Part shown: piece by piece, positions 2,748-49,640 of the stretch
How the letters are laid out: every line of letters begins with the position of its first letter
How positions within the stretch are numbered: the first letter of the stretch is position 1
Origin: Caulobacter sp. Root343
GTDB lineage: Bacteria > Pseudomonadota > Alphaproteobacteria > Caulobacterales > Caulobacteraceae
Length of the DNA stretch: 64,000 nucleotides
Direction: 5' to 3'
Assembly (NCBI RefSeq): GCF_001425745.1
Contig: NZ_LMDF01000011.1
Coordinates: forward strand, 112,260-176,259
Made by a program: the position numbers and the translations under genes
The notes under the pieces: model-generated
Seen by the model: the letters and a program-made list of their open reading frames with translations, nothing else
Databases searched by the model: none
Told to the model about the DNA's origin: nothing

Positions 2748-3488
2748 ATGGTCGAAGCATCCAGGGGCGCGTGCCTGGTGGTGGGCGTCGGCGATGGTGT
2801 GGGCGGGGCGATCGCCCGGGCCTTCGCGGGCGAGGGCTACACGGTCTGCATGACCCGCCGGCCGCGTCACCTCGACCAGCTGGAAGCGCTGGCTGTCGAG
2901 ATCCGTCAGAACGGCGGCGACGCCCGCGCCTATGGCGTCGACGCCCGGCAGGAGGCCGAGATGGTCGCCCTGGTCGACCGCATCGAGGCCGAGGTCGGAC
3001 CGCTGGAGGTGGTGGTCTTCAACATCGGCGCGAACGTGCGGTTCGGCGTCGTCGAGACCACCGCCCAGGTGTTTTCCAAGGTCTGGGAGATGGCCTGCTT
3101 CGCCGGCTTTCTGACCGGACGCGAGGCGGCGCGGGTCATGCTGCCGCGCGGCCGGGGCACGATCCTGTTCACCGGGGCCAGCGCCTCCTTGCGCGGCAAG
3201 GACGGCTTCTCGGCCTTCGCCTCGGCCAAGGCCGGTCTGAGGGCCATGGCCCAAAGCCTGGCGCGCGAGGTCGGGCCCAAGGGGATCCACGTGGCCCATG
3301 TGGTGGTCGACGGCGCGATCGACGGGGTCTTCACGCGCTCGATCCGCGACGACGTCGAAGGGCTGCTGGCCCGCGACGAGATCCTCAAGCCCGACGACAT
3401 CGCCGCGAACTATGTCTGGCTGCACCGCCAGCCGCGCTCGGCCTGGACCCACGAGGTCGACCTGCGGCCCTGGGGAGAGACCTGGTGA
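2748..3488 (+). CDS. SDR-family oxidoreductase with Phe at the catalytic Tyr position
   Basis: 246 residues with a Rossmann fold. The glycine-rich nucleotide loop is VVGVGDGVGGAIA near the N-terminus, and FNIGAN stands for the usual NNAG. The catalytic Ser is S145 (TGAS). The YxxxK motif reads F157-A-S-A-K161, so the Tyr hydroxyl that normally acts as general acid/base is missing while Lys is kept. Length and fold fit a classical SDR and I believe Phe is shared by related proteins, so this looks like a diverged subfamily rather than a broken gene. Its stop overlaps a GTG, and the isomerase gene starts 14 bases later, suggesting one transcript. Substrate unknown. Confidence 0.8.
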   Translation: MVEASRGACLVVGVGDGVGGAIARAFAGEGYTVCMTRRPRHLDQLEALAVEIRQNGGDARAYGVDARQEAEMVALVDRIEAEVGPLEVVVFNIGANVRFGVVETTAQVFSKVWEMACFAGFLTGREAARVMLPRGRGTILFTGASASLRGKDGFSAFASAKAGLRAMAQSLAREVGPKGIHVAHVVVDGAIDGVFTRSIRDDVEGLLARDEILKPDDIAANYVWLHRQPRSAWTHEVDLRPWGETW

Positions 3489-43619: not shown

Positions 43620-44056
43620 GGGATAAGCGAATAGGCCGCCCGATCCGCTTCACTCCAGTGCGGCAGGATCCGGTCGAGATTGAGCTCGATCCAGTCGGCC
43701 AGGCCGCGCACCCGCTCGGCCACCTCCACGCCTGTCGGCGTAAGGCTGTATTCCACGTGCGGCGGCACGACCTGGAACGCCACGCGCTTGACGAAACCGT
43801 CGCCCTCCAGCTGCTGCAGGGTCTGGGCCAGCATCCGCTCGCTGACGCCGCCGATACGTCGTCGCAAGGCGCTGAACCGGCAGGTTCGCGTCTCCAGCGC
43901 CATCAGCACCAGCACGCCCCAGCGGCTGGTGACGTGGTTGAGCACCTGGCGTGACGGACAGCCGGCGGCCATCAGGTCGCCGCGCTCCACCCGTTCGGAA
44001 AGCGCGATCGGCGGCGCGGCGGCGATTTCGAGATCTTCTTCCATACTTACATTCAT
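43616..44056 (-). CDS. HxlR-family redox-type regulator (QorR-like)
   Basis: 146 residues (an ATG at 44044 would give 142). A winged helix-turn-helix of the HxlR/DUF24 family: CPSRQVLNHVTSRWGVLVLM, RTCRFSALRRRIGGVSERML and HVEYSLTPTGVEVAERVRGL. C33 is at the conserved position used as the thiol sensor by relatives such as HypR and QorR; a second Cys is C59. It is divergent from a QorB-like quinone reductase, the arrangement seen for ytfH/qorB and qorR/qor2, so control of that gene by disulfide or quinone stress is likely. Confidence 0.88.
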   Translation of the reverse strand: MNVSMEEDLEIAAAPPIALSERVERGDLMAAGCPSRQVLNHVTSRWGVLVLMALETRTCRFSALRRRIGGVSERMLAQTLQQLEGDGFVKRVAFQVVPPHVEYSLTPTGVEVAERVRGLADWIELNLDRILPHWSEADRAAYSLIP

Positions 44057-44078
44057 GTACGTACTTACGAAAAGTAAG
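44044..44078. promoter_or_regulatory. HxlR operator candidate between regulator and quinone reductase
   Basis: TACTTAC occurs twice on the plus strand (44044-44050 and 44062-44068), 18 bases apart. The second copy forms an inverted repeat CTTAC-GAAAA-GTAAG (44064-44078). It overlaps the 5' end of the HxlR gene and lies 41 bases or more before the reductase start. This spacing suits HxlR dimers that repress both directions. Confidence 0.55.
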
Positions 44079-44118
44079 CAAGAGCCCTAGATCGCATCCG
44101 TCATCACGGAGAACGATC

Positions 44119-44973
44119 ATGACCATCGCCATCACGGGCGCGACCGGCCAGTTGGGCCGCCTCGTCATCGAGAAGCTGAAGGCTCGCGTCCCCGCCGGCG
44201 AGATCATCGCCCTGGCGCGCGATCCGGCCAAGGCGGCCGACCTGGGCGTCACGGTTCGAACGGCCGACTACGGCGATCCCGATACCCTGGCGGCCGCGTT
44301 GCGCGGCGTCGACACGCTGTTGCTGATCTCGGGCAACGCGGTCGGCCAGCGTGTCCCGCAGCATCGCAACGTGATCGAGGCCGCCAAGGCCGCCGGCGTC
44401 AAGCGCATCGTCTATACCAGCGTCCTGCGCGCCGACACCTCGCCCCTGGCGCTCGCCGAGGAGCACAAGGCCACCGAGGAACTGATCGAGGCCTCGGGCC
44501 TGACCTACGCCTTCCTGCGCAACGGCTGGTACACCGAGAACTACACCGGCGCCCTGCCGGGCGCGATCGCGGCGGGCGCGCTGATCGGCGCCTCCGGCCA
44601 GGGCCGGATCTCCGCCGCGACGCGCGAGGACTACGCCGAGGCCGCCGCCGTCGTGTTGGCCACGCCGGACCAGGAGAACCGGATCTACGAACTGGCCGGC
44701 GACACGGCCTTCACCGGCGCGGACCTGGCCGCCGAGGTGTCGCGCCAGGCCGGCGAGACCCTGCCCTATAACGACCTGCCCGAGGCCGAATACGCGCGGA
44801 TCCTGGAGAGCTTCGGCCTGCCCGGTCCGTACGCGGCGATTATCGCCCAGTCGGACGCCTCCGCCGCCCGCGGCGCGCTGTTCGACGACGGCCGCCAGCT
44901 GTCGACCCTGATCGGTCGCCCGACCGCGCCGCTGTCGACGGTGGTGGCGGCGGCGCTGAAGGCCGCGACCTAA
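44119..44973 (+). CDS. qorB: NAD(P)H:quinone oxidoreductase, QorB/NmrA-like
   Basis: 284 residues from the ATG at 44119 (E. coli QorB is 286). MTIAITGATGQLGRLVIEKL is the NADPH loop. LRNGWYTENYTGALPGAIAA and ISAATREDYAEAAAVVLATP are characteristic of QorB. It reduces quinones using NADPH, protecting against redox cycling. It is divergent from an HxlR-family gene, with an operator-like repeat between them. The symbol follows the match in length, motifs and neighbour. Confidence 0.85.
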   Translation: MTIAITGATGQLGRLVIEKLKARVPAGEIIALARDPAKAADLGVTVRTADYGDPDTLAAALRGVDTLLLISGNAVGQRVPQHRNVIEAAKAAGVKRIVYTSVLRADTSPLALAEEHKATEELIEASGLTYAFLRNGWYTENYTGALPGAIAAGALIGASGQGRISAATREDYAEAAAVVLATPDQENRIYELAGDTAFTGADLAAEVSRQAGETLPYNDLPEAEYARILESFGLPGPYAAIIAQSDASAARGALFDDGRQLSTLIGRPTAPLSTVVAAALKAAT

Positions 44974-45043
44974 GCGCGACGAAGCTGTGGGCGGCGGGAG
45001 AAACCCTCTCGCCAAGCCCGCCCGGCTTTGCCAAGCACCGGGG

Positions 45044-45523
45044 ATGAACCTCGTCGGCTATTATCGCGTGCCCCCGGTGCGCGGCGTCTTCTTCAGCCCC
45101 GCCCAGGAGGAGCGCCTGCTGCTGATGGGCTGCCAGGAGGTGTTCAGCGACCGCTGCCTGCCGGCCGGCGTGGTCCGGCCGGGCCTGGATCGCGCCTTGG
45201 CCGCGCTGGAGGACGGCGGGACCCTGGCCGTGCTCAGCCTGCACGCCCTGGCGGGCACGATGGTCGACCTGCTGGAGGTAGCGCGGGGACTAAAGGCGCG
45301 CGGCCTGCATCTGGTGGTGGCCCAGCCGGAGATCGACACCCGCGCCGACGCCGCCTTCTTCGAGGCCTGCCAGACGCTGGCCAGCTTCAACGGCGAACGG
45401 GCCCTGGTCCGGGCGGCCGAGGCGTCGCTGGTCGCCAACGGCGTCCGAGGCGGCGGCCTGCAAGGGCTGAAGGCGGCGGCGACGCCGGAACCCGACGCGC
45501 CGCCGTCCTCGGAGGACGACTAG
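45044..45523 (+). CDS. Serine-recombinase-like protein with degenerate active site
   Basis: 159 residues from the ATG at 45044. It follows the resolvase catalytic-domain plan end to end: [82 protein letters not shown]. In gamma-delta resolvase numbering R8 and R45 are present. The nucleophile S10 is P10 and the D67-R68-L-G-R71 cluster reads H67-A-L-A-G71, so strand cleavage is impossible. No DNA-binding domain follows; the tail is short and acidic. The frame is intact, so the protein is probably repurposed. It ends against the convergent ABC permease gene. Confidence 0.75.
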
Positions 45524-46281
45524 ACCTTCAGCCGGTAGCCCGTCTTGAAGATCCACGCGACGGCGGTCAGGCAGACGGCCAGGAACACGGCGGTCATGCC
45601 CAGGCTGACGCCGACGCCCACGTCGGAGCGGCCGTAGAAGCTCCAGCGGAAGCCGCTGATCAGATAGACCACCGGGTTGAACAGGGTGATCTTCTGCCAG
45701 ATCGGCGGCAGCATCTTGATCGAGTAGAAGCTGCCGCCCAGGAAGGTCAGCGGCGTCACCACCAGCAGGGGGACGATCTGCAGCTTCTGGAAGTCGTCGG
45801 CCCAGACCCCGATGATGAAGCCGAACAGGCTGAAGGTGATCGAGGTCAAAACCAGGAACAGCAGCATCACGAACGGATGGGCGATCTCGAACGGCACGAA
45901 GATCCGGGCCGTGGCCAGGATCAGCAGGCCCAGGCAGATCGACTTGGTCGCCGCCGCCCCGACATAGCCGGTCACCGCCTCGATCCAGGCCACGGGGGCC
46001 GAGAGCAGCTCGTAGATCGTGCCGGCCCACTTGGGCATGTAGATGCCGAACGAGGCGTTGGAGATGCTCTCGCCCAGCAGCGACAGCATGATCAGGCCCG
46101 GCACGATGAAGGCGCCGTAGCTGACCCCGTCGATGGCCTGCATGCGCGAGCCGATCGCCGAGCCGAACACCACGAAATAGAGGCTGGTCGACAGCACCGG
46201 CGAGACGACGCTCTGGGCCAGGGTGCGGAACCAGCGCGCCATCTCGAAGCGGTAGATGGCCTTGATCGCGAACAGGTTCAT
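45520..46281 (-). CDS. ABC-2 type exporter permease (YadH-like)
   Basis: 253 residues with six membrane helices. The conserved ABC-2 region is [20 protein letters not shown], followed by [20 protein letters not shown] near the C-terminus. YadH-type permeases pair with the ATPase encoded just upstream (ATGA overlap). The cargo of this transporter in proteobacteria is uncertain; drugs or lipid-linked polysaccharide have been suggested. The stop interleaves with the stop of the convergent recombinase-like gene. Confidence 0.92.
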
Positions 46282-47333: not shown

Positions 47334-47795
47334 TCAGGTGGGGACCTTGCGCACCTTCAGCACCGCGCCGTCGACCCCGATCACGACCACCTCCTGGCTG
47401 ATCGCCGGGATCGGCTCCTCGGTCTCGGCGGCCCAGTCCTTGCCGTCGACGAACACCCGGCCCCGGCCCTGCTCGAAGGTCGAGAGCACCTGGCCGCGCT
47501 GGCCGATCAGGCGCTGAAGCGGATCGTTGAGATCGGGACTGTTCGGCTCCAGCACCGGCCGCAGGAAGCGCCGCGCCAGATAGGTGGTGGCGATGGTCAG
47601 GACCGCGAACAGGCCTAGCTCGATCACCAGGCCCGGATGCAGCGCCTGGGCGACCAGGGCGACGATGAAGGCGCTGGCGGCCGGCCATAGCAGCCAGCCG
47701 CTGCCCGTGCCGACCTCGATGGCCAGAAACAGGGCCGCGACCGCCAGCCACAGCCAGAGCGGATGCATCGCGTAGAAGCCTCCCAGGGCGTCCAT
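47334..47795 (-). CDS. NfeD-family membrane protein
   Basis: 153 residues. Three or four membrane helices (LWLWLAVAALFLAIEVGTGS, AASAFIVALVAQALHPGLVI, LGLFAVLTIATTYLAR), then a soluble OB-fold domain (LIGQRGQVLSTFEQGRGRVF, VVVIGVDGAVLKVRKV). NfeD proteins are encoded next to stomatin/SPFH proteins; here the SPFH gene is directly upstream with 3 bases between. The pair is thought to act in membrane-domain organisation or quality control. The protease domain of longer NfeD forms is absent. Confidence 0.9.
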   Translation of the reverse strand: MDALGGFYAMHPLWLWLAVAALFLAIEVGTGSGWLLWPAASAFIVALVAQALHPGLVIELGLFAVLTIATTYLARRFLRPVLEPNSPDLNDPLQRLIGQRGQVLSTFEQGRGRVFVDGKDWAAETEEPIPAISQEVVVIGVDGAVLKVRKVPT

Positions 47796-47798
47796 GGA

Positions 47799-48761
47799 TC
47801 AGGCTCCGCGCTTGCCGCCGGTCGGCGTGCTGGTTGTCGCGGCGCGCTGCGTGTCAGAGCCGAGGCTCTTGATCAGCTCGCTGACGCCGGCGACCGTTCC
47901 GGTCAGGCCGGCGAAGTCGGCGGGCACGATCACGGTCTTCTGCTGCGGGCTGCGGGCCAGCTCGCCAAACGCCTCGACGTATTTCTGGGCGATGAAGTAG
48001 TTGATCGCGTTGACGTCGCCCTTCGAAATGGCCTCCGAGACGAAGGCGGTCGCCTTGGCCTCGGCCTCGGCTTCCCGCTCGCGGGCCTCGGCGTCGCGGA
48101 AGGCGGCCTCGCGGCGGCCCTCGGCCTGCAGGATGGCCGACTGCTTCTGGCCCTCGGCGCGGGCGATCTGCGACTGCTTCTCGCCCTCGGCCTCGGTGAC
48201 CACCGCGCGCTTCTCGCGCTCGGCCTTCATCTGACGGGCCATGGCGTTGGTGATGTCCGGCGGCGGCGTCAGGTCCTTGATCTCGATCCGCGCCACCTTC
48301 ACGCCCCAGGGGCCGGTGGCGTGGTCGATGGTCGACAGCAGCCGGGTGTTGATGGCGTCCCGCTGGCTCAGCACCTCGTCCAGCTCCATCGAGCCCACGA
48401 CGGTGCGCAGGTTGGTCTGGGCCAGCTGGGTGATGGCGTAGATCAGGTTGTCGACGCGATAGGCGGCCGCGGCGGCGTCCATCACCTGGATGAAGACGAT
48501 CGCGTCGACCTTCACCGACACGTTGTCCTTGGTGATGACCTCCTGCTGCGGGACGTCCAGCACCTGTTCCATCATGTTGACCCGCCGGCCGATCGTCTCG
48601 ACGAACGGGGTCAGGATGCTGATGCCGGGCTTCAGGGTCCGGGTGTAGCGGCCGAACCGCTCGACGGTGAATTCGCGCCCCTGAGGCACGATCTTGATCA
48701 CACTGATCACCAGCACGAAGGCCAGGATCAGCAGCACCAGAACGACGATCGACGTACCCAA
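47799..48761 (-). CDS. SPFH/band 7 (stomatin, QmcA-like) membrane protein
   Basis: 320 residues. A single N-terminal membrane helix (IVVLVLLILAFVLVISVIKI) is followed by the SPFH domain: VPQGREFTVERFGRYTRTLK, DNVSVKVDAIVFIQVMDAAA and LNTRLLSTID-like region. A long Ala/Glu/Arg coiled coil (QKQSAILQAEGRREAAFRDA) drives oligomerisation. The C-terminal tail (SPQQKTVIVPADFAGLTGTV) is of the QmcA/HflK-like group. It forms large membrane assemblies and partners with NfeD. Confidence 0.93.
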   Translation of the reverse strand: MGTSIVVLVLLILAFVLVISVIKIVPQGREFTVERFGRYTRTLKPGISILTPFVETIGRRVNMMEQVLDVPQQEVITKDNVSVKVDAIVFIQVMDAAAAAYRVDNLIYAITQLAQTNLRTVVGSMELDEVLSQRDAINTRLLSTIDHATGPWGVKVARIEIKDLTPPPDITNAMARQMKAEREKRAVVTEAEGEKQSQIARAEGQKQSAILQAEGRREAAFRDAEAREREAEAEAKATAFVSEAISKGDVNAINYFIAQKYVEAFGELARSPQQKTVIVPADFAGLTGTVAGVSELIKSLGSDTQRAATTSTPTGGKRGA

Positions 48762-48794
48762 GACGCCCTCCCCTCACAAACCTTGTGGTTGAGG

Positions 48795-49253
48795 TTAGCG
48801 CGCCCCTTCGCCTTCCGCCACGGAATCCGGCGCCGGATCGGCATGGCGGGCCGGACGCATCGACTGCGACAGCTTCCGGGCCAGGGCCTGGCCCTTGCGC
48901 GCGGCCTGCTGCTCGGCCTTGTGGCTGGACTCGTCACAGATCGGATATTCGCTGCGGCGGGCGGCGAAGCCGGTGTTGAACCGCTCGCGCAGCTGGACGT
49001 CGAAGGCCTGGTCGGCCTGTTCGACCTCGGTCAGCCGCACCATGCGGGCGCGCCAGTACTGGTCGCCCTCGCCTTCGCAGGCCTGGCGCAGGGCATGGCT
49101 CTCGCCCAGCGTATAGGCGAGGTCCAGCAGGCGCTGGCGCTCGCCGGCGTCCCGCTCCTGGGCCAAGGCCACGGGGGCCCAAGCCACAGAGACCAGGACG
49201 GAAGAGGCGACGAGGGCGGCCAGGGCGACGCCGATGGGGAACGGACGCGACAT
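48795..49253 (-). CDS. TIGR02301-type secreted protein of unknown function
   Basis: 152 residues. The signal peptide runs to about VALA-QE (residue 31). The mature region RQRLLDLAYTLGESHALRQA, CEGEGDQYWRARMVRLTEVE and FNTGFAARRSEYPICDESSH with two Cys fits the alphaproteobacterial family I know as TIGR02301. The C-terminus is disordered. Probably periplasmic; no biochemical function is known. Same strand as the SPFH/NfeD pair, 33 bases upstream, so possibly the same transcript. Confidence 0.8.
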   Translation of the reverse strand: MSRPFPIGVALAALVASSVLVSVAWAPVALAQERDAGERQRLLDLAYTLGESHALRQACEGEGDQYWRARMVRLTEVEQADQAFDVQLRERFNTGFAARRSEYPICDESSHKAEQQAARKGQALARKLSQSMRPARHADPAPDSVAEGEGAR

Positions 49254-49430
49254 GGCGCTGTTATCGCCAAAGCCCGCCGCCCTGTCACGGCCCCGCGCCC
49301 AACGGGCGAGCGGCGGCGCTGGAAGCTTGGGGATAAAATGTCTCCCGGTGTCAAAAAAGCGTGGACGATAAAGGCCTTGCGATCACCACGGATCGGGCGT
49401 TCCCTGTGGATACTGCAAGGAGGTCTGCTC

Positions 49431-49640
49431 ATGACTGAGGTGCATTACGGCGTTGTGCGCGTCGGTGATCGCTGGTCCATCATCGGCGACAACCTGCGCT
49501 TCGGCGCCTACGAGACGCGCGGCGAAGCGCGCGCGGCGGCCCGCCGCCTGGCCGAACATCCGGCTGGCTTGGGCCTGTCGGTGATGCTGCACGAACAGCA
49601 AGACGACTGGGTGCTGCCCCGTCCGATCGCGCTCAGCTGA
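49431..49640 (+). CDS. Small conserved-looking protein (69 residues)
   Basis: 69 residues from the ATG at 49431, with a strong AAGGAGG 8 bases upstream. Sequence pattern: HYGVVRVGDRWSIIGDNLRF, GAYETRGEARAAARRLAEHP, then a strand. This suggests a beta-beta-alpha-beta fold reminiscent of DUF2188-like domains. The much longer open frame from 47763 through this gene is an antisense artefact of the SPFH gene. Function unknown. Confidence 0.75.
   Translation: MTEVHYGVVRVGDRWSIIGDNLRFGAYETRGEARAAARRLAEHPAGLGLSVMLHEQQDDWVLPRPIALS

Follow-up and report, generated by a model that had tools for sequence, protein, structure and literature searches.

A predicted resolvase-fold protein of Caulobacter that lacks the catalytic serine and the DNA-binding domain

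The window, which is the whole stretch of 64,000 nucleotides from Caulobacter sp. Root343 analysed here, contains a small gene whose product resembles the catalytic domain of serine recombinases (Table 1). G+C at its three codon positions is 0.79, 0.49 and 0.93; GC3 in six nearby genes ranges from 0.87 to 0.98. The initial annotation, which had been made from the letters alone, described an intact frame with a base composition like that of its neighbours, and both parts of this description hold: there is one frame of 159 codons, and its GC3 falls within the neighbours' range.

Table 1. Features of the locus in the window and, in the last four rows, degenerate resolvases from other genera, with positions in the respective loci.
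Feature	Position	Strand	Remarks
Gene for a resolvase-fold protein, predicted to be catalytically dead	45044..45523	+	159 aa + TAG stop, single open frame
Predicted fold of a resolvase catalytic domain, from strand 1 through helix E (residues 1-133)	45044..45442	+	Pfam, VIA-align rows, Foldseek
R8-V9-P10 codons, proline at the position of the nucleophilic serine	45065..45073	+	R8 and P10 in 41/41 distinct sequences
D36-R37-C38 codons, with D36 conserved and a novel invariant Cys at 38	45149..45157	+	Conservation
H67-A68-L69-A70-G71 codons, replacing D67-R68-L-G-R71	45242..45256	+	Sequence, conservation
Helix E (residues 104-131), which still has F105, F106 and L112	45353..45436	+	Model secondary structure, conservation, Hin roles as described (PMC4513852)
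26-residue C-terminal tail instead of a helix-turn-helix (HTH) domain, mostly predicted disordered	45443..45520	+	pLDDT < 50 at 137-159, net charge -3
5' leader with TTTGCCAAGCACCGGGG immediately before the ATG; no evident Shine-Dalgarno sequence (by eye)	45004..45043	+
ABC-2 type transporter membrane subunit, convergent neighbour	45520..46281	-	Flank of 23/23 clade-A loci
NmrA-like NAD(P)-binding protein, upstream neighbour	43951..44973	+	18/23 clade-A loci, not an obligate partner
Degenerate resolvase L057	2894-3412	-	Other Caulobacteraceae genus
Degenerate resolvase L058	4029-4556	-	Other Caulobacteraceae genus
Degenerate resolvase L060	2973-3446	+	Other Caulobacteraceae genus
Degenerate resolvase L056	near 3007-3222	+	Other Caulobacteraceae genus; assembly gap

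In Pfam, the window protein matches the Resolvase profile PF00239 (E 1.2e-14) with residues 4-131, which cover profile positions 2-137 of 145. Its score of 55 bits compares with a curated cut-off of 23.3; two family members of clade B (see below) reach 45.9 and 52 bits. There is a further match to PHROG 125, 'DNA invertase' (E 1e-7), and no useful match in NCBIfam. The best PDB relative is Gin (E 9e-11), and the gamma-delta and Tn3 resolvases are weaker (E 0.04 and above). An AlphaFold2 model built on 13 sequences (mean pLDDT 78.9, pTM 0.66) points in the same direction; the protein models as a resolvase catalytic domain. All 40 Foldseek matches of the model at E ≤ 1e-3 carry titles of serine recombinases, and VIA-align superimposes it on Tn3 resolvase 5cy2 with Z 16.0 and an rmsd of 1.8 over 122 residues. 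VIA-align rows above Z 5.7 are likewise all titled serine recombinases, save 3lhk ('putative DNA binding protein') and 3ilx (a transposon ORF), both of which we take to be of the IS607 type. The earlier alignment with the whole resolvase catalytic domain is thus borne out by the Pfam match and the model, and neither Foldseek nor VIA-align returned an unrelated fold that fits better.

Relatives that share the features described below occur widely in the genus. A search of 75 Caulobacter genomes at E ≤ 1e-15 gave matches in 43; the one in G150 is an intact recombinase, so 42 genomes hold the family, 41 of them with a full-length copy and one with a truncated copy. With the match in G150 discounted, the family is absent from 33 of the 75, and 22 of these belong to the 60 genomes with completeness of 90% or more and contamination of no more than 5%. 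C. vibrioides DSM 9893 (L037) is one of the carriers. At family rank, 50 of 299 Caulobacteraceae genomes matched at E ≤ 1e-10, some of them through intact or other degenerate recombinases. A class-wide search with A1 matched 4 of 385 genomes at E ≤ 1e-12, namely its own genome and three whose proteins have S10 and a DRL-type motif. The 12 named relatives in genome contigs come, going by their titles, from Caulobacter or from unassigned alphaproteobacterial assemblies. The 41 distinct proteins fall into clade A (23 proteins, including that of the window), clades B1 (8) and B2 (9), and a single protein, L046.

Relatives on mobile elements are numerous and distant. Matches at E ≤ 1e-5 were obtained in 1348 of 72,556 plasmid records, and 40 phage records match too; all are below 60% identity. 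Where the phage and plasmid records among the matches listed carry annotation, it names recombinases or invertases. A scan of viral contigs gave 31 pattern matches and no relative. A viral origin was considered and rejected on these two grounds.

Residue numbers refer to the window protein; we take this numbering to agree with that of Tn3 and gamma-delta resolvase. In the window protein R8, D36 and R45 are kept, and S10 is replaced by Pro, S39 by Leu, D67 by His, R68 by Ala and R71 by Gly. This residue-by-residue reading agrees with the initial annotation, which had listed R8 and R45 as kept, proline in place of S10, and H-A-L-A-G at 67-71. Across the family, P10, H67 and A68 are found in all 41 distinct sequences, though identity to the window protein drops to 37%. 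R8 and D36 are equally invariant; position 45 is Arg in 23 and Lys in 18 sequences, and position 71 is Gly in 23 and Ala in 18. The same substitutions in 41 of 41 sequences, together with full-length copies in 41 of 75 genomes, argue against chance. In Tn3 resolvase, the S10A exchange alone is described as abolishing catalysis (PMC9943657). The scissile phosphate is described as contacted by R8 and R68, and R71 has been proposed to contact it as well (PMC4499144). No full-length family member keeps the serine and R68/R71, which are absent from 41 of 41 distinct sequences, and the claim that the protein cannot cut DNA can therefore be kept as a prediction from sequence.

If positions 8, 10, 36, 39, 45, 67, 68 and 71 are assumed to make up the active site, five of these eight columns are invariant, compared with 24 of the first 133 columns overall (41 sequences; hypergeometric p 0.005). 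Three of the five (10, 67 and 68) are fixed for a new residue, which argues for reuse of the pocket rather than drift. Besides those already named, the 24 invariant columns include G5, Y6, P11, G14, C30, C38, D98, T99, L112, F115 and E126, and Cys is found at position 109 in 37 of the 41 sequences. Neither Cys at 38 nor His at 67 occurs in any of the 21 intact relatives compared by eye; C30 is common in active invertases, as seen in the Gin alignment. Taken together, the pattern suggests that the old active site has become a remodelled pocket, although part of its invariance may reflect packing of the protein core.

The part of the domain that serves oligomerisation in the active enzymes appears to have outlived the chemistry. 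To compare it with Hin, positions were placed through the Gin alignment and a Gin-to-Hin offset that we take to be one residue. On helix E, F105 is present in 39 of 41 sequences, F106 in 40 and L112 in all. In Hin, Phe105, Phe106, Met109 and Leu112 are reported to serve the dimer-tetramer switch and the rotation interface: in the dimer it is Phe105 and Met109 that insert into the catalytic domain, in the tetramer their place is taken by Phe106, and Leu112 is part of the rotation interface (PMC4513852).

Beyond helix E, the family differs from its active relatives. In the three family members scanned, Pfam matched no HTH domain (none at E ≤ 1 for the window protein), and in all 41 sequences the tail beyond residue 133 has 8-35 residues. 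The convergent ABC-transporter gene overlaps the end of the resolvase-like gene by 4 nt (45520-45523), so that an HTH remnant cannot fit behind it. The earlier observation that no DNA-binding domain follows stands on these points and on the low pLDDT of the tail. In summary of the comparison with the small serine recombinases of PF00239 (Gin and Hin invertases, Tn3 and gamma-delta resolvases), the Caulobacter family shares their sequence profile, their fold as predicted, R8, D36, R/K45, the GY and IDT motifs and the hydrophobic pattern of helix E, but is without the nucleophilic serine, R68, R71 and the HTH domain, and its tail is mostly disordered by prediction.

How the family relates to intact and to other degenerate recombinases was examined in a tree of 66 catalytic domains, in which 21 enzymes were called intact by eye from their catalytic residues. 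All 21 lie on one side of a single branch with support 99/99. The other side holds the Caulobacter family, whose own grouping has support of only 70/66, and four degenerate proteins from other Caulobacteraceae genera (L056, L057, L058 and L060). L060, with an end branch of 2.92, has no safe position, and a long-branch warning applies to the join of L056-L058. Like the Caulobacter family, these four (L056 with its assembly gap) no longer carry S10 or the D67/R68/R71 set but still have R8 and D36 (by eye); they differ in having other residues at 10 and 67. In L057 and L060 there is also a weak HTH_7 match, which stays under the curated cut-off, and L060 gives no PF00239 match at E 0.5. A search with L057 scores members of the Caulobacter family (best E 2e-17) a little higher than intact enzymes (best about 1e-15). 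From their sequences, L057 and L060 look as if they were dead but DNA-binding. This suggests an order of descent from enzyme to dead DNA-binding protein to HTH-less module, with the reservation that the joins are long-branch and L060 is unplaceable. The initial annotation had proposed to look for the same substitutions across Caulobacterales; they are shared throughout the Caulobacter family, and not outside the genus, where other genera have different degenerate or intact resolvases.

Selection was estimated by the method of Nei and Gojobori. For six close clade-A pairs, not all of them phylogenetically independent, dN/dS is 0.16 (0.12-0.25); the neighbouring genes give 0.09 (ABC membrane subunit), 0.13 (ABC ATPase) and 0.21 (NmrA-like) in close pairs. 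Medians within subclades are 0.28 (A), 0.21 (B1) and 0.15 (B2). The 42 pairs of lowest dS lie between 0.05 and 0.30, and two of the next three, which join L055 to L027 and L028 across B1 and B2, reach 0.84-0.87. The gene had been described as maintained rather than decaying, and the close pairs and subclade medians agree with this. Frameshifts in sister strains, which would have spoken against it, are not a feature of the family overall: one of 42 copies is broken, the clade-A copy L063 (2276-2554, minus strand), in which an internal deletion leaves the remainder of helix E in another frame. A decaying pseudogene was rejected on the close-pair dN/dS, the common residues and the 41 of 42 intact copies.

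Between lineages the picture is less simple. Over 807 pairs with dS of 0.1-1.2 the median dN/dS is 0.60 and the maximum 1.39; cross-lineage medians are 0.56 (B1-B2), 0.77 (A-B1) and 1.03 (A-B2). In nine genomes compared, B1-B2 pairs give 0.55-0.68 for the ABC membrane subunit and 0.46-0.65 for the resolvase-like gene. Since the values for the ABC subunit are equally high, saturation of dS probably accounts for those of B1-B2. In A-to-B pairs (L046 included) from the nine genomes, the ABC subunit is lower (0.31-0.60) than the resolvase-like gene (0.52-1.18), so saturation alone is insufficient and explains only a part. A and B copies differ more than their genomes do, and it is possible that the protein changed faster after the split, or that the two are old paralogues instead of orthologues. 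As a side observation, dN between clades A and B is about 0.5-0.7 for the resolvase-like protein and 0.09-0.19 for the ABC membrane subunit in these genomes, and the loci differ. Within clade A, identity to the window's copies is 65-77% for the resolvase-like protein and 83-96% for the ABC neighbours.

The gene neighbourhood is stable in clade A. The convergent ABC transporter flanks all 23 loci, at a distance of 1.2-1.4 kb in L006 and L025, and the NmrA-like gene lies upstream in 18 and is missing from the flank in 5. Other lineages have other neighbours, named here by inspection: in the B1 loci read (4 of 8) the resolvase-like gene follows a GGDEF/EAL-type gene, in the B2 loci read (4 of 9) it follows queuosine-synthesis-like genes, and the L046 copy adjoins a cysH-like gene. 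The ABC gene itself is present in all 14 tested genomes without the clade-A arrangement (8 without the family and 6 of B lineages, that of L046 included), and no resolvase-like gene was matched beside it in those 14 stretches, two of which are short. An operon partnership with NmrA was rejected because 5 of the 23 clade-A loci do not have that gene in the flank and copies of other lineages adjoin different genes. Stability within clade A combined with differences between lineages leaves no fixed partner, and hence no genomic pointer to a pathway.

The leader was compared over about 60 bases before the ATG. Three B-lineage pairs (B1, B2, L046) align despite their different neighbours, with 0, 0 and 2 of 500 shuffles reaching the score. 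Among six pairs between clades A and B, one (the window's block with L026) had 5 of 500 shuffles as good, and the others, with 72 to 310 of 500, are not above chance. The leader pattern given in Table 1 has a single match (≤ 2 mismatches) across three genomes, namely at the resolvase-like gene in the window's genome; the backward control also gave one match. Several sequence features upstream were noted in passing. The B-lineage leader, upstream of L026, L046 and L047, reads TTATCCCCGAC ... GCCACACA-like before the ATG in spite of the dissimilar neighbours. In many clade-A copies one finds GAAG-TGTGGGCGG-like letters instead, about 50-65 bases upstream. In L007, L011, L012, L018 and L021, a hairpin-like sequence followed by TTTT was seen by eye between the upstream gene (NmrA or AraC) and the resolvase-like gene; it may act as a terminator and form part of the resolvase-like locus.

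With somewhat more confidence than doubt, we propose that the family is a domesticated, non-cleaving and probably dimeric protein that has a remodelled pocket and serves in binding or regulation; that it dimerises and that the pocket is in use are the conjectural parts. An old serine recombinase of the invertase/resolvase type would have been taken over by the Caulobacter chromosome and would have lost its DNA-cleaving residues and its DNA-binding domain while keeping the fold and the hydrophobic face of helix E. Helix E would hold the dimer together, and the rebuilt pocket (R8, P10, D36, C38, R/K45, H67) could bind another protein, a ligand that carries phosphate or the end of a nucleic acid. 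The earlier suggestion of recruitment as a binding, sensing or regulatory module would fit such a history. In eight family-positive genomes (G077, G091, G101, G164, G185, G203, G215 and G266) just one match to PF00239 reaches E ≤ 1e-8, and its E-value resembles that of the family itself, which makes a role that needs a resident recombinase unlikely. A more specific version of the history is possible but, on balance, doubtful: domestication in Caulobacteraceae would first have produced a dead, HTH-bearing DNA-binding protein, and only later, in Caulobacter, an HTH-less one in which the R8-D36-C38-H67 pocket has a binding or sensory function on an oligomerisation module.

The most interesting rival, although we consider it unlikely, is a defence-like inhibitor, whereby the dead subunit would poison the active serine recombinases of incoming transposons, phages and plasmids by forming mixed dimers with them. 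Truncated transposases can poison active enzymes in a similar way. The retention of the helix E switch residues and the abundance of relatives on plasmids speak for such a role, and the faster divergence of the protein compared with its ABC neighbours, far faster between lineages, would suit an inhibitor. However, none of the anti-phage defence profiles of PADLOC-DB 2.0.0 matches P0001 at E ≤ 0.5, family-positive genomes hold up to eight further PF00239 matches (in G212), and identity to intact enzymes is about 29-39% among the matches listed, which makes mixed dimers uncertain.

Somewhat less probable again is a redox, metal or ligand sensor, in which C30, C38, H67 and D36, with C109 in most members, would make up a novel site within the former pocket. 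The invariance of the first four residues and the lack of C38 and H67 in intact relatives are what such a sensor would lead one to expect, but C30 is shared with active invertases. We give little credence to a DNA-bound architectural protein that would need no more than the catalytic domain and helix E for binding. Here, the invariant R8 and the Arg or Lys at position 45 in all 41 sequences have to be weighed against the loss of the HTH domain, R68 and R71; R125, in the numbering we assume, is lost as well, the net charge of the domain is only -3 to +1, and 33 of the 41 tails are net negative. A new enzyme, in which C38, H67, D36 and R8 would give the resolvase fold another kind of catalytic site, is improbable: the same invariant residues would lie at the former active site according to the alignment, yet a Cys-His-Asp set can also arise for structural reasons. 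That the gene is what is left of a decaying mobile element and persists by chance is hardly credible, since the losses of HTH domain and catalytic residues, the absence from 33 of 75 genomes, the broken copy and the high dN/dS between lineages that this reading would explain are set against full-length frames in 41 copies, new residues that are invariant across lineages, stable synteny in clade A and the estimates of selection within subclades, which already contradict it.

For an inactive serine recombinase, one precedent was met in the literature consulted. Vaccinia F16 is described as an inactive serine recombinase (PMC4304020, PMC11980589). Going by the descriptions in these papers, F16 is derived from a recombinase, predicted to be inactive and kept with a changed role, and the Caulobacter family is likewise homologous to recombinases, devoid of catalytic residues and retained; F16 differs in being viral and targeted to nucleoli. 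In the portion consulted, a review of recruited mobile elements deals with serine recombinases that still invert DNA, and the word 'inactive' is absent from the review (PMC8987985). A literature search for the Caulobacter family found no report in the titles and opening lines of abstracts among the matches listed, with thin coverage of subscription journals. The family itself therefore appears to be new, while an inactive serine recombinase is already known from vaccinia.

If the proposal is right, the resolvase fold can be reused in bacteria as a plain binding module, without cleavage residues or a DNA-binding domain, and naming its members 'recombinase family protein' would give a misleading idea of their function. 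If the reading of the R8-D36-C38-H67 pocket is right as well, these proteins would represent a class of bacterial regulators built from a recombinase fold. Caulobacter lends itself to genetic work and the gene is present in C. vibrioides DSM 9893, so the role is directly testable.

Elsewhere in the window, a 625-codon open reading frame at 47763-49640 on the plus strand has no Pfam match, and 56-78% identity over long stretches is seen in clade-A relatives; the actual gene in this interval may lie in another frame or on the other strand.
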